Origin: Blautia sp.
GTDB lineage: Bacteria > Bacillota > Clostridia > Lachnospirales > Lachnospiraceae
DNA: 64,000 nt
Reading direction: 5' to 3'
NCBI GenBank assembly: GCA_023667395.1
Contig: JAMPAC010000009.1
Coordinates: 16,510 to 80,509, forward strand
Made by a program: the position numbers and the translations under genes. Below the pieces are notes generated by a model. The model ran no database searches. It worked only from the letters and a program-made list of their open reading frames with translations, and had not been told where the DNA came from. Below are positions 5,497 through 12,383 of this stretch, one piece after another (the stretch's first letter is position 1; each line of letters opens with the position of its first letter).

Positions 5497-8190
5497 TCAG
5501 GAAACGTTGTTCCTGCCCAGGACTGTCTGGATCAGTTCCTGCAGTTCATGGATATCGATGGGCTTCGGGAAATGGGCGTTCATGCCTGCGTCCATGGATC
5601 TCTGATAATCCTCCGCAAAGGCGTTGGCCGACAGGGCTATAATGGGAATGCGCGCCAGCTGCCGGTTTTCAAGCTGCCGTATCCTTCTCGTGGCCTCGTG
5701 CCCATCCATCACCGGCATCTGAATATCCATCAGGATCAGGTCATAATAACCCGGTTCGGAATGTTCCACTTTCCCCAGTCCTATGCTTCCATCCTCCGCC
5801 GTTTCCACAAGGAATCCCTGCCTGGTGAGCAGTTCCTCCGCGATCTCCATATTGATCTCATTGTCCTCCACCAGCAGGATTCTCTTTCCTTTCAGGAAAT
5901 CCTGATCGACATCGATGTCTGATACTGTGGCGTCGTTGGATTCCTGACCCTCCTGCAGTCTCAGGCGCAGGCTGACCGTGAACCGGCTTCCTTTCCCCGG
6001 TTCGCTCTCAACCTTGATATCCCCTTTCATCATATCCACCATGTTCTTCACTACCGTAAGACCCAGGCCCGTCCCTGGGACGCCGCTCTGGGTGGTGTTG
6101 CTTTCCCGCTTGAAAGGATCGAACAGGCTGCCGATAAATTCCTGTGAGATGCCGATTCCATTGTCCTCCACGATAAACCGGTACATGCCGTAACCCGGAA
6201 AATCGTTCTCTACCTCCTCGGCGGTCAGGGAAATATTTCCTCCCGGTTCCGTATATTTTACCGCATTGTCCAGCAGCTGGCACAGAACCTCCTTGATACG
6301 TCTGTAATCCGCCACCACCGCAAAACGGTTGATCCCGGATTTATTCAGCAGAAAATGCAGGGATTTGGCATTTATCTCAAACATCACTGCTTTCTCTACC
6401 TCCGCAAGCAGATCCGCCAGATGACATTCGCCTTCCACCAGATTGACTTTCCCTGACTCCATGCGGGTGATCTCAAGGGACTCGTTGACAATGGAAAGCA
6501 GCTGTTCGCCGGAGATACGGATCTTCTTATTATATTCATCGATCCTGTCCGGTTCCATGACGTGATTCCTGATCAGTTCCGTATAGCCGATAATGGCGTT
6601 TAAGGGCGTGCGAATGTCATGGGACATATTGGATAAAAACACGCTCCGCGCCAGGTTGGCAGTCTCCGCCCGCTGCAGGGCGCTCTGCAGAAGATTCTGC
6701 CTCTCAACCTGGTCGGTGATATCTTTTACCACAAATAAAGTCACAATATCGCCCGTATACTCATTTTTCCCAAGCAACAGCATGTAAAAACACAGTCGCT
6801 TCTGTCCCATGGCGTCCATGGACCATCCCTCAAAGGTCTGCTCCAGTTCCCCCGCCTCATAGCACCGGATCAGCCGCTTGATATCGAAAAACTCCCTGTA
6901 TTCCTCCAGGGATTCCGGCGCCACATTCCGCGCGCAGGACTCGATATAATCCGTGTACTTCCCATAGGGCTTCGGATTCATATACTCAAACAGATCATAA
7001 ACCTTTCCCTCCGATAACTGCGGGACGTCGCCGATCAGCCTGTCCGTACTCAGGTTGACCTCAAAAAAGGTGATGGCGTCATATAAAATGGCTTTCTTAT
7101 ACTGGCTCTCCCGCACGTTTGCGCTGCGGAGTTCCTCGTTCACCCTCTCCAGCTTATGCATCCTCTGTTTCATCCGGTCGGTGGCGTCCTCAATGAATAC
7201 CAGGAAGATATCCCCATACATCTCCGTATGCAGGAAATGACCGTAATCCTCTATCCAGCGCACGCTTCCGTCTTTCTGGATGATCCTGTATTCCACATAA
7301 TCCAGGTCATAGACGCTGTTCGCGATCTGCGAGGCAATACTTTTCTCCACACTGTCAACATCCCCGGAATACACCATCCCCCTGAAAGTATATCCCGTCA
7401 GTTCCCGGAATTCGGCCTCCGTATCACAGCCGAATATCCGCAGTATGGCCTTGTTGGCATAGATCAGTTCTTCCTTTCCGTCCGCGTGATAAATGAAAAA
7501 GCCTCCCGGCATCCCCTCCAGGATCAATTCCATCATGGGAATGGTCTTTTCATCAAAATTCCGGAAAAAGTCCTTTTCCCGCTTCGTATGTATGGAAGTT
7601 CGTTTAAAAAATTCCAGAAACCCGTCCTCCACCGCCACCTGATCCAATTCCGCTTCCGGCAGATCATAGTAATATTTGCCTGTTTTAATGTCCATGGACA
7701 GACTGTCCAGGGGAAAGCCCTTATTTAAGATTCCATGGGGCTTTGACGTAATAATGAATTTCGCGCTTTCCAGGGACGCGTCCATGGCCTCGTAAGTATG
7801 CTCCTCGTCCATCACAAAACAGATGGCGTTCTTATAACAGGCAGTCAGGTCGCCGTATTTTACCGCCAGCGCGGCATAATGAGCCAGCATCTCCTCGTCG
7901 CTCAGATACTTCCCATTGACAGTCCTTACATGCACCCCCGGCTGATCCTCCTCCGGTACATTGTCAAAATACAGCCCGGAATCGCAGGAAAATACAGGCA
8001 TGTGGAATGCCTCATAATATGCCGCTGCTTTCTGCCTGGCATTTTCCAGAGGGGTTTCCCCATCCTCCGGGACGTCAGGGATCTCCATATCCAAATCTTT
8101 CAGCCCGATCAGTTCTATGTCCAGAGCTGCCAGACGGCGTTTCATTGATGTCAGTTTTGCCGGATTGCCTGTGCCGTATAATATCTTCAT
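5497..8190 (-). CDS. HAM1/RdgB-like NTP pyrophosphatase domain fused to PAS hybrid histidine kinase
   Basis: 897 residues in one uninterrupted frame. Residues 1-200 resemble the HAM1/RdgB (non-canonical purine NTP pyrophosphatase) fold: GTGNPAKL for the TxxNxxK nucleotide-binding motif, a conserved acidic PEDGETPLENA segment, and CDSGLYFD with the catalytic Asp. The C-terminal SHR motif of true RdgB is not recognisable. Two PAS-like regions follow (about 215-340 and 365-495), then HisKA (His524 in SNMSHDIRTPLNAI), HATPase_c (GTGLGLTVV) and a receiver with Asp822 in LILMDIQMPVMDG. There is no transmembrane segment, so the protein is cytoplasmic. Start ATG at 8190 has AGAGG six bases upstream and gives the classic HAM1 N-terminus MKILYGTGN; a longer frame extends to 8301 but overlaps the upstream gene. 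The fusion is discussed as a finding. Confidence 0.88.
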   Translation of the reverse strand: MKILYGTGNPAKLTSMKRRLAALDIELIGLKDLDMEIPDVPEDGETPLENARQKAAAYYEAFHMPVFSCDSGLYFDNVPEEDQPGVHVRTVNGKYLSDEEMLAHYAALAVKYGDLTACYKNAICFVMDEEHTYEAMDASLESAKFIITSKPHGILNKGFPLDSLSMDIKTGKYYYDLPEAELDQVAVEDGFLEFFKRTSIHTKREKDFFRNFDEKTIPMMELILEGMPGGFFIYHADGKEELIYANKAILRIFGCDTEAEFRELTGYTFRGMVYSGDVDSVEKSIASQIANSVYDLDYVEYRIIQKDGSVRWIEDYGHFLHTEMYGDIFLVFIEDATDRMKQRMHKLERVNEELRSANVRESQYKKAILYDAITFFEVNLSTDRLIGDVPQLSEGKVYDLFEYMNPKPYGKYTDYIESCARNVAPESLEEYREFFDIKRLIRCYEAGELEQTFEGWSMDAMGQKRLCFYMLLLGKNEYTGDIVTLFVVKDITDQVERQNLLQSALQRAETANLARSVFLSNMSHDIRTPLNAIIGYTELIRNHVMEPDRIDEYNKKIRISGEQLLSIVNESLEITRMESGKVNLVEGECHLADLLAEVEKAVMFEINAKSLHFLLNKSGINRFAVVADYRRIKEVLCQLLDNAVKYTEPGGNISLTAEEVENDFPGYGMYRFIVEDNGIGISQEFIGSLFDPFKRESNTTQSGVPGTGLGLTVVKNMVDMMKGDIKVESEPGKGSRFTVSLRLRLQEGQESNDATVSDIDVDQDFLKGKRILLVEDNEINMEIAEELLTRQGFLVETAEDGSIGLGKVEHSEPGYYDLILMDIQMPVMDGHEATRRIRQLENRQLARIPIIALSANAFAEDYQRSMDAGMNAHFPKPIDIHELQELIQTVLGRNNVS

Positions 8191-8818: not shown

Positions 8819-8848
8819 TTGTTAAAAACAAAAATCTTCCGGTAAGAT
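8819..8848 (+). promoter_or_regulatory. Candidate sigma-A promoter for the ABC exporter
   Basis: TTGTTA, an 18-base spacer and TAAGAT lie 33 bases before the ABC ATPase start. Just upstream are small inverted repeats (GTAGTA-gaaaaa-TACTAC at about 8769, and a second GGTAGTAC copy) that could bind a regulator. Confidence 0.5.
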
Positions 8849-8880
8849 GAAGAAAAACAACAGAAAGGCAGGTAATCATC

Positions 8881-9831
8881 ATGACAGAGATTGTATTCAA
8901 GGCAAGCGGACTCACAAAGAAATATCTGAAACCGGGCTTCGGACCCGGATGGATGACGCCTGTGCTGGATCATTTTAATATGGAGATCAGGCGCGGCGAG
9001 ATCTACGGATTCGTGGGTTCTAACGGCGCGGGGAAGACCACGCTGATCCGCATTCTGGCAGGATTTGCCAGACCCACGGGCGGCAGGCTGGAATTATTTG
9101 GGGAAGAGGATCCCCGAAAGCTGTACCTGCAGCGCAGACGCATCAACGGCATCATTGAAAAACCCGCGATCTACCCCCATCTGACGGCAAAGGACAATCT
9201 GGAGGTCTGCAGGCTGCAGCGCGGAATCAGGGGAACGCAATGCATCACGGAAATCCTAAAGGCCGTGGATCTGTCTGATACCGGCCATAAAAAGGCAAAG
9301 AACTTTTCCCTGGGGATGAAACAGCGGCTGGGTATTGCCATGGCGCTTTTGGGGGAGCCGGAGTTTCTGTTCCTGGATGAACCCATCAACGGCCTGGATC
9401 CCGAGGGAATGGCGGCTCTGCGGGAACTTTTGGGAAGACTGCACCGGGAAAGGGGCATTACCATCCTGATCTCCAGCCACCTGTTGAGCGAACTGCATCA
9501 GCTGGCCACATGTTACGGGTTCATCCACGACGGGAAAATGCTGGAGCAGATCACTTCAGAAGAACTGGACAGGAAATGCGGGAAGTACCTGCATATAAAG
9601 GTAGACCAGGCGGCAAAAGCGGAAGCTTTCCTGCGGAAAACCTTTCAGCTGCACAATCTGGAAACAGTACCGAACAACGAGATCAATGCATACGACATAC
9701 CGGATCAGCTGGAAAGCGGGGAAATATGCAAGGCGCTGATCCAGGCAGGAATCCATGTGAAAACAGTGGCGGTAAAGGATACGGATCTGGAAAAATATTA
9801 TCTTTCACTGATAGGGAGGACAACAAAATGA
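8881..9831 (+). CDS. ABC transporter ATP-binding protein (BcrA/bacitracin-export type)
   Basis: 316 residues. Walker A GSNGAGKTT (about residue 49), signature FSLGMKQRLG, Walker B FLFLDEPINGLDP and the H-loop SSHLL are all intact. The C-terminal extension of about 95 residues is typical of BcrA-like exporters for lantibiotics and other peptides. Start ATG follows AGAAAGGCAGG. It overlaps the permease gene by ATGA, so the two are translationally coupled. Function is drug or peptide self-protection export or lipid handling; the substrate is unknown. Confidence 0.9.
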   Translation: MTEIVFKASGLTKKYLKPGFGPGWMTPVLDHFNMEIRRGEIYGFVGSNGAGKTTLIRILAGFARPTGGRLELFGEEDPRKLYLQRRRINGIIEKPAIYPHLTAKDNLEVCRLQRGIRGTQCITEILKAVDLSDTGHKKAKNFSLGMKQRLGIAMALLGEPEFLFLDEPINGLDPEGMAALRELLGRLHRERGITILISSHLLSELHQLATCYGFIHDGKMLEQITSEELDRKCGKYLHIKVDQAAKAEAFLRKTFQLHNLETVPNNEINAYDIPDQLESGEICKALIQAGIHVKTVAVKDTDLEKYYLSLIGRTTK

Positions 9832-10565
9832 AGAATTTGATTAAGGCGGAATTTTTTAAGCTTTTCAAATCGACGGGCTACAGGATCATGCTGGCGCTGT
9901 CTGTGGGAGTGGGACTGTTTTTTGCCTCATTTGCGGTCAGTCATGCCTCCCGGATGTCGGGATACGCCGTATTATCCAATATGGTCTCTTTCGTCCTGTT
10001 CCATTTCATCTTCACGGGTTCCTTTACAGCCGTTTTCCTTTGCGGCGAATTTTCCGACCGCACCATGGGAACAGGCCTGTTCTGCGGTCTGCCCCGGCGC
10101 AGCGTGTTCCTGTCCAAGCTTGCGGCCTATTTCGCGGGACTGTTAGTCCTGTTGTCCATGGTGGTGGTAGTGCCGACGGTGATCATCTCCAAAGTAAATG
10201 GGTTTGGAATAGAACTGACAGCGGCAAACAACATGACGATCCTGACGCAGATAATCTTCTTCTGGCTGGTATGCTCCGCCATGGGAGGTTTCTTCCTTTT
10301 CCTGGCGCTGGCAACGAAAAGCGCAATAGCCACCATAGGGGTCGGCCTGGGGATCGCACAGTCCCTGTTGGTACTGACTTCCAACTATGTTAATTCGGGC
10401 GTGGAAAGATATGCCCCGGCAAAATATTCCTTTGTCTACCAAATGTTCGTCCTGGAGGACTGGGAGCATCTGCAAAAGGGACTGTTCCTCGAGGTTTCCC
10501 TGATCACGCTTGCCGTGACGCTGATCGCGTCGGCATGGATCTTTGAGAGATCGGAACTGAAGTAA
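9828..10565 (+). CDS. ABC-2 type permease partner of the BcrA-like ATPase
   Basis: 245 residues with about six hydrophobic helices, beginning MKNLIKAEFFKLFKSTGYR, the usual amphipathic start of BcrB/LanFEG-type ABC-2 permeases. Start ATG at 9828 overlaps the ATPase stop (ATGA) and has GGGAGGA upstream; the frame is open further upstream but inside the ATPase gene. It ends 8 bases from the convergent peptidase gene. Confidence 0.85.
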   Translation: MKNLIKAEFFKLFKSTGYRIMLALSVGVGLFFASFAVSHASRMSGYAVLSNMVSFVLFHFIFTGSFTAVFLCGEFSDRTMGTGLFCGLPRRSVFLSKLAAYFAGLLVLLSMVVVVPTVIISKVNGFGIELTAANNMTILTQIIFFWLVCSAMGGFFLFLALATKSAIATIGVGLGIAQSLLVLTSNYVNSGVERYAPAKYSFVYQMFVLEDWEHLQKGLFLEVSLITLAVTLIASAWIFERSELK

Positions 10566-11356: not shown

Positions 11357-12364
11357 TTATAGATCCAACTGAATATCCTTTGCATATGAATATGATATCA
11401 CTTCACCCGCCTTAGTGGAACTGTACCCCTTTTCCCTGTGGGAATAATTCGATATTTCAACGGATCCGAACTCCGCAAATTTATCATAAATCCGTTCCAG
11501 TACGGCCAATTCCGCATCTGTCAGGATTCCCTCCGGGACATCACACTCGGGAATGACCTGATGCCTTTCATATCCGCTATCATACGTCACTTCTATATGG
11601 GCGATCCGGTCGGCTGTCATTGTTCCAAACAAGATATCATAATTCTCCGGCACAGGCCCATAAGGCAGATGAACATACTTCGTTCCGGAAATGGATATGC
11701 CGTTCTCCCGATAGAAGATCATATCCGAATAATTCAGCAGCTTTAATAATTTTGTCTTTAGAAGCCCGGCATTCTTATGCGCAAAGAACAAAACCATGGC
11801 ACAGAATTTCTCGTAATCAAATGCCTTGAATCCATTCTCCTCAGATGGAACCGTCGAAAAAAACCGCTGCAGGAATCTCCGGTCAGGATCGTATTTCATA
11901 TTCTGCTCCAGTTTATTTACATTTTCCAGCAGTCTGGCTTTCTGTTTTTCAGAGAAAGCGACTTCATTCTCCGTCAGGTAAACCCGCATATTTTCCGGCT
12001 CGCGCAGAAATAAAAGAAGACTGTTATGGGCTTTATCCTGGACGGAGCCATTCTCATATCTGAAGATCGTCTTGTCACCCCAGTTAAGCAGTTTCGCGAA
12101 ACTGCGCTGGCTCAATCCATACTGTTCCCTGATCTGTCTGATCTCTTCCGGCAATAACAGCCTGTGCTTTCTCCGATATTCATTATACGCGTTCACCAGA
12201 GTGGCATTATCCAACTCTTCACAGTAGAACTCTTCCCCGCAATCAGCGCATACCAGGATCTGTGCGTCAACCTCGACGGATTCCCCGCATACGGTATAAG
12301 CTTCTCTTTTGGTCACAATCTTTGTTTCGACTTCCTTACCACATTCCTCACAATATTTTCTCAT
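11357..12364 (-). CDS. MqsA-type antitoxin with zinc ribbon, HTH and Panacea (SocA-like) domain
   Basis: 335 residues. The N-terminus has a YgiT/MqsA-like zinc ribbon (Cys5, Cys8, Cys39, Cys42). An Xre-type helix-turn-helix follows (about 73-110: IRQIREQYGLSQRSFAKLL), then a coiled linker and a C-terminal DUF4065/SocA/Panacea-like domain (about 185-300; LLKTKLLKLLNYSDMIFY, YVHLPYGPVPENY). It probably neutralises the upstream toxin and represses the operon. Start ATG at 12364 has AGGAGG with 8-base spacing; a GTG nine bases earlier would leave no spacing. It starts 20 bases downstream of the toxin stop. The fusion of an MqsA-like module to Panacea makes it about three times the length of E. 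coli MqsA. Confidence 0.85.
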   Translation of the reverse strand: MRKYCEECGKEVETKIVTKREAYTVCGESVEVDAQILVCADCGEEFYCEELDNATLVNAYNEYRRKHRLLLPEEIRQIREQYGLSQRSFAKLLNWGDKTIFRYENGSVQDKAHNSLLLFLREPENMRVYLTENEVAFSEKQKARLLENVNKLEQNMKYDPDRRFLQRFFSTVPSEENGFKAFDYEKFCAMVLFFAHKNAGLLKTKLLKLLNYSDMIFYRENGISISGTKYVHLPYGPVPENYDILFGTMTADRIAHIEVTYDSGYERHQVIPECDVPEGILTDAELAVLERIYDKFAEFGSVEISNYSHREKGYSSTKAGEVISYSYAKDIQLDL

Positions 12365-12383
12365 CGATACCACCTCCTGCAGT

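Follow-up and report, generated by a model that had tools for sequence, protein, structure and literature searches.

A Ham1/RdgB-like domain joined in frame to a PAS hybrid histidine kinase in Blautia

The fused gene and its neighbours

The window, by which we mean the whole stretch of 64,000 nucleotides of a Blautia sp. contig that was analysed, carries on its minus strand a single open frame of 897 codons (5497..8190) that begins with an ATG at 8190 and stops at 5497. This is exactly the range that an earlier note on the DNA had assigned to a HAM1/RdgB-like pyrophosphatase fused to a PAS hybrid histidine kinase. A purine-rich, Shine-Dalgarno-like run lies 5′ of the start codon (AGAGGGATCAC-ATG, by eye). 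The protein of 897 amino acids reads Ham1-like domain, linker, PAS domain, PAS-like region, HisKA, HATPase_c and receiver, and the Pfam models Ham1p_like, PAS_3, HisKA, HATPase_c and Response_reg each scored over their cut-offs in this one frame. All parts lie on the minus strand. The Ham1/RdgB-like domain (residues 1-198, 7597..8190) was delimited by Pfam, profile comparison and an alignment of conserved residues, and the junction or linker (residues 199-213, 7552..7596) begins directly 3′ of a run of six T. Then come the PAS domain (residues 214-345, 7156..7551; best Pfam stretches 221-263 and 243-321) and a putative second PAS-like region (residues 360-495, 6706..7113), which has no Pfam match and is proposed from its position and its VVKDITDQ ending. 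The HisKA domain (6451..6648, Pfam) holds the phospho-acceptor His524 within SHDIRTP, the HATPase_c domain (5959..6309, Pfam) has motifs that we take to be N-box-, G1- and G2-like, and the receiver domain (5530..5880, Pfam) holds the phospho-acceptor Asp822 within LMDIQMP. With H524, the N/G1/G2-like motifs and D822, the fused protein has the marks of a hybrid histidine kinase. No transmembrane stretch was apparent in it (highest 19-residue Kyte-Doolittle mean 1.0), which agrees with the cytoplasmic PAS-HisKA-HATPase-receiver protein in one frame that the earlier note had described.

By eye, none of the other possible starts of the kinase frame in the window has a ribosome site at a suitable distance. 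ATG227 of the fused gene lies directly 3′ of GGAGGGG, a spacing too short for a usual ribosome site, though a start there is conceivable. A phage origin of the gene was considered and set aside, as there was no near DNA match in a phage collection by a search that is blind to distant matches, which are possible.

Several neighbouring features were observed in the window. A protein with a 5′-nucleotidase C-terminal domain is encoded at 57-1586; at 509 aa it compares with 656 aa in the genome labelled G063 and 662 aa in G129, and its frame starts near the window edge and may be cut or have another start. The stretch 8833-10515, which carries two overlapping ABC-transporter-type frames on the plus strand (8881-9831 and 9510-10565), is absent from the otherwise syntenic region of G063. 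The product of 11357-12373 combines HTH, MqsA-antitoxin-like and Panacea (SocA-like) domains.

The Ham1-like domain and its stand-alone relatives

The assignment of residues 1-200 to the HAM1/RdgB family was borne out by profile searches. The Pfam model Ham1p_like (PF01725) matched residues 4-132 (E 4.7e-14, 53.1 bits versus a cut-off of 22.5), and a profile-profile comparison with hhalign extended the Ham1/RdgB relation to residue 186 (probability 98.8, E 7.7e-17). In the latter, a profile of 37 subfamily sequences was compared over residues 1-186 with one of eight RdgB-type proteins, namely the genome's own and seven clostridial ones, L064 among them, that read NHR and not SHR. Against solved structures, the subfamily profile matched seven distinct chains of the RdgB/ITPase kind (best 3tqu, 2.8e-12; 1k7k, 8.4e-8). 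The motif written as TxxNxxK in the earlier note is present as TxNxxK (T7, N9 and K12), and the catalytic-type Asp mentioned there was found as D70 together with E42 and K54, all aligned with the genome's own RdgB; N50, F159 and D162 are also kept. We presume that TxNxxK binds phosphate and that the Glu, Lys and Asp residues are catalytic. The fused domain scored under the NCBIfam equivalog cut-offs (TIGR00042, 41.8 versus 145.35; NF011397, 51.1 versus 234).

A degenerate domain finds no support in the near-invariant columns of the subfamily. When 72 stand-alone relatives were selected by a motif filter, the window domain showed no deviation at 51 such columns, as did 39 of the 73 sequences in all, the worst having four. 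Without the filter (82 relatives, 50 columns), it again had none; no deviation was seen in 44 of the 83 rows, the window included, and the worst had five. The branch length of the window domain was ordinary, at 0.28 versus a median of 0.22. Since the genome carries a separate canonical RdgB with SHR, the fused Ham1-like copy is accessory.

Where the genome's own RdgB reads SHR, the fused domain has AVE (residues 186-188), and the stand-alone subfamily likewise lacks SHR at the aligned place, with AVE or other letters there. The letters SHR occurred in one of 82 distinct stand-alone rows (L016), in the tail beyond the domain. In human ITPase, according to the available text of PMC5075207, Arg178 of SHR touches the 6-keto oxygen of ITP and is termed essential. 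Because SHR is gone, the base preference is probably other than ITP/XTP, and this change would hold for the whole SHR-less subfamily; alternatively, the subfamily may have become inactive when SHR was lost. The fused domain resembles an enzyme whose base pocket has changed, is predicted to be active, and would most likely still bind and hydrolyse a nucleotide. The absence of SHR stands as the earlier note had reported it, and its use there as a sign of a sensor does not, since the stand-alone subfamily has the same loss; for the same reason we rejected SHR absence as a mark of fusion.

The SHR-less proteins of about 200 aa were found across Lachnospiraceae and other Clostridia, and the closest stand-alone relatives share up to 78% identity with the fused domain. 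Scanning the contigs of GTDB genomes brought up 59 loci with Ham1-like matches. Genus, family and class samples, which overlap, were also searched, and the genus and family counts are among the matches listed, that is, the stronger rows. In the genus, 119 of 138 genomes matched at E 0.001 or better, canonical RdgB counted in; among the 67 rows listed at E 2e-26 or better, the window has an open frame of 940 residues and the other 66 have at most 425. The family sample of 397 genomes added 40 rows listed at E 4e-22 or better with frames of at most 378, and in the class sample 28 of 391 genomes matched the profile at 1e-25, the window alone lying in a frame longer than 378. Thus the search for the same architecture that the earlier note had proposed yielded no second kinase fusion of the Ham1-like domain among the matches listed in the contig scan and the three samples.

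The longer subfamily frames, where read, are C-terminal fusions with NUDIX-type (L033 by Pfam; L035 and L071 by eye), HAD (L031 by Pfam) or GNAT-type domains (L028 by Pfam; L095 by eye), so the C-terminus of the subfamily tolerates partners. A weak Ham1 match in a 782-residue frame of genome G272 was examined as a second kinase fusion and rejected: this frame holds a long membrane protein and an SHR-bearing RdgB, and the partner is not a kinase. At L178 (736-3054, G272:C181), a 772-residue frame encodes a multi-span membrane protein followed by a canonical SHR-bearing RdgB. The membrane partner presumably resembles a carbon-starvation CstA-type transporter.

Orthologous kinases and N-terminal stubs

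At 1e-30, the N-terminal half of the kinase had matches in 34 of the 138 genomes of the genus, the window included. The closest kinases, in frames of 712-722 residues, share 92% (G063), 84% (G132) and 84% (G102) identity with the N-terminal query; the kinase of G129 shares 68%, over 151 residues only, and that of G445 64%. In the family sample, four of 397 genomes, the window included, matched the kinase at 1e-70, and the kinases of G445, G196 and G505 from this sample begin without a Ham1 remnant. The Ham1 domain is missing from the kinases of G063, G132, G102, G129 and G445, and is thus not kept among orthologues; among the genomes searched, the whole domain stands with the kinase only in the window's genome, a 206-contig assembly. 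Between species the kinase is under strong purifying selection, with dN/dS relative to the window of 0.086 (G063), 0.077 (G132) and 0.083 (G102) at dS of 0.36 for G063 and about 1.0 for G132 and G102. Because three syntenic orthologues are without the domain, the kinase can probably do without it, and we regard kinase function as likely to be independent of the Ham1 part.

Over the first 19 kb, the window and G063 share 87-91% DNA identity in the main blocks. Within the gene, a clean in-frame stretch of 552 bases (7586..8137, minus strand, ends ambiguous by a few bases) is missing from the G063 orthologue, and on both sides of this gap the identity is about 90%. What remains in G063 is a stub equal in length to the first 18 Ham1 codons (8137..8190, minus strand), which opens its kinase gene; in G132 and G102 the kinase gene opens with the first 12 Ham1 codons. 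The N-termini read MKTLYGTGNPAKQASMKRQKDFF in G063 and MENLYGTGNPAKYTKKGSMDFF in G132 and G102. Besides the window, such a stub was found at L118, L119 and L120 among the 30 kinase loci of the genus that were inspected, some of whose N-terminal stretches are cut by the locus end; four further genus matches had no locus. The deletion ends differ, as G063 keeps 54 Ham1 bases and little of the linker and G132 and G102 keep 36 bases and more of the linker, so that neither stub state derives from the other. Since each stub has bases that the other lacks, the simplest reading is two separate losses from a longer ancestor. No stand-alone SHR-less copy was found in the stub species; G063 had two canonical matches and G132 and G102 had zero PF01725 matches, a point of little weight since these two genomes (86 and 93% complete) lack even a canonical RdgB match.

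The G063 stub agrees with the window at 50 of 54 bases; among 83 distinct 5′ ends of stand-alone genes, the best reaches 44. The G132 stub agrees at 31 of 36 bases, a value equalled by the best stand-alone genes, so identity alone cannot tie it to the window domain; a common origin of the two is suggested by place and letters together. A 21-mer, GGCACAGGCAATCCGGCAAAA, is present in the kinases of the window, G063, G132 and G102 and in none of the 83 stand-alone 5′ ends, one stand-alone gene matching 20 of its 21 bases; it is likewise in none of the 72 genes of the pattern-filtered set. The stronger argument for an ancestral fusion is place, the site, the kinase and the neighbours being identical.

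The gene order in G129 is that of the window (a 148-residue gene, the kinase, a second kinase and the 5′-nucleotidase), with no Ham1 domain or stub. Its kinase begins MNAMGVQAKGNRDFF, a 5′ end that we examined as a candidate stub and did not accept. G129 is best read as the pre-fusion state, though a loss there is conceivable. Two further observations concern this genome: its orthologous kinase (L176, 8421-10037) has a shorter frame of 539 aa in which the second PAS-like region is apparently missing, and a TfoX_N-domain gene lies between the kinase and the 148-residue gene. The linker of the fused protein (TKREKDFF) is similar to the N-terminus of the kinase in G132 (TKKGSMDFF) and in G129 (AKGNRDFF). 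The true kinase start of G132 could be an internal ATG that follows a purine-rich stretch.

Taken together, these results suggest that in the common ancestor the Ham1 domain most probably preceded the kinase, and that it has since been lost two or more times. The two could have been separate neighbouring genes in this ancestor instead of a single fused one. A fused ancestor is favoured by the lack of another well-spaced kinase start in the window and by both deletions being in frame; the latter favours it weakly, as two such deletions would be in frame by chance in about 1 in 9 cases.

Origin and possible role of the fusion

On balance, and with some reserve, we favour a genuine, fairly old in-frame fusion, in which an enzyme-type domain is tethered to, and may modulate, a kinase that can manage without it. 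By this account, an accessory stand-alone Ham1-like pyrophosphatase gene of Clostridia would have landed complete before the gene of a cytoplasmic PAS hybrid histidine kinase in the ancestor of four related species, and the kinase would then have come to be translated from the start codon of Ham1. Two lineages would have lost the Ham1 part again by in-frame excision, leaving a stub of 12-18 codons that still supplies the start, and the window's species would have retained the whole domain. The domain would be produced in a fixed ratio with the kinase, with the PAS region as the main input, and if nucleotide binding affected the kinase at all, it would do so as an additional modulation.

Other accounts of the same gene differ in what the domain does or in how it came to stand there. 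A dedicated nucleotide sensor is the chief, though less likely, alternative, in which a non-standard or signalling nucleotide would bind to a Ham1-like homodimer, with slow hydrolysis as a possibility, and the linker would relay this binding to the PAS-kinase dimer, altering autophosphorylation. The position of the domain at the N-terminus, the usual place of kinase inputs, suits this, as does its intact state while two related lineages dropped it. ITPases are homodimers with the ligand cleft beside the dimer interface, as described in the portion of PMC5075207 at hand, which would fit a dimeric kinase, and the NrtR-family regulators built on a Nudix fold offer a precedent (available part of PMC4666351). 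Against it, three orthologues of the kinase are without the domain and still under strong purifying selection, SHR loss is common to the stand-alone subfamily, and the Nudix signature is described as impaired in the NrtR regulators of NAD metabolism (same part of PMC4666351) whereas here the near-invariant residues are all kept. That the domain is a ligand-controlled kinase input reporting an unusual or modified intracellular nucleotide, derived from a house-cleaning enzyme whose base pocket has changed, is in our view rather doubtful; the lineage would then have been caught with a domain that sister species had already discarded.

It is improbable that the whole domain was regained by recombination into a stub, or that an independent insertion of Ham1 at this site gave rise to the stub of G132 and G102. 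Such events would spare the second loss that is otherwise needed with G063 closer to the window (dS 0.36) than G132 and G102 (about 1.0), and the G132 stub is no nearer to the window than to some stand-alone genes (31/36); however, some bases of the G063 stub are missing from the G132 stub and vice versa, any stub must derive from a longer gene at the site, and the 21-mer common to the four kinases is in 0/83 stand-alone 5′ ends. Still less probable is a false join of two genes, the refutation that the earlier note had foreseen, in which the T6 run (GAATTTTTTAAACG) would contain a homopolymer error that masks the stop of the Ham1 gene. A seventh T would indeed give EFF-stop, right after the Ham1 helix and near the usual end of the stand-alone proteins; yet the kinase in the window's genome would be left without a plausible, well-spaced start and ribosome site, which is why we give this reading low weight, and the kinase of the sister species G063 is in frame with the Ham1 start. 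Relatives carry Ham1 remnants at the same site, which also makes a sequencing-error join unlikely.

Even if the domain of our favoured tethered fusion is not a sensor, the five-species series records the gain of a domain by a signalling protein and its loss from it, from no domain in G129 through the full fusion in the window to two different stubs in G063 and in G132 and G102. The SHR-less stand-alone subfamily with its NUDIX, HAD and GNAT fusions appears to be a set of enzymes that merits assays. If the kinase receives input from this domain, the protein would be, as far as the portions of literature searched extend, the first two-component sensor described whose input is a nucleotide house-cleaning fold, and would make it possible to study whether bacteria survey their damaged nucleotide pools. 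The earlier note had known of no such sensor, and none was found in the open-licence PubMed Central literature as partly available, an absence of little weight.

Compared with known systems, the fused domain is like the RdgB/HAM1/ITPA pyrophosphatases of non-canonical purine NTPs (PF01725, TIGR00042) by its profile over residues 1-186 and by TxNxxK, Glu42, Lys54 and Asp70, and differs from them by the absent SHR, the TIGR00042 score below cut-off and the fusion to a kinase. To the SHR-less stand-alone subfamily it is tied by identity of up to 78% and by all the near-invariant residues; members of this subfamily stand alone or are fused to NUDIX, HAD or GNAT domains, and among the matches listed a kinase is the partner only in the window. 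The PAS hybrid histidine kinases of G063, G132, G102, G129 and G445 are the same PAS-HisKA-HATPase-receiver protein as that of the window, but these orthologues are without the Ham1 domain and retain a stub in G063, G132 and G102. The NrtR and AraR transcription regulators likewise use a nucleotide-hydrolase fold, that of Nudix, as a ligand-binding input; their output is a DNA-binding domain, and in the part of PMC4666351 available their Nudix catalytic signature is described as impaired, whereas the window domain keeps its near-invariant residues.
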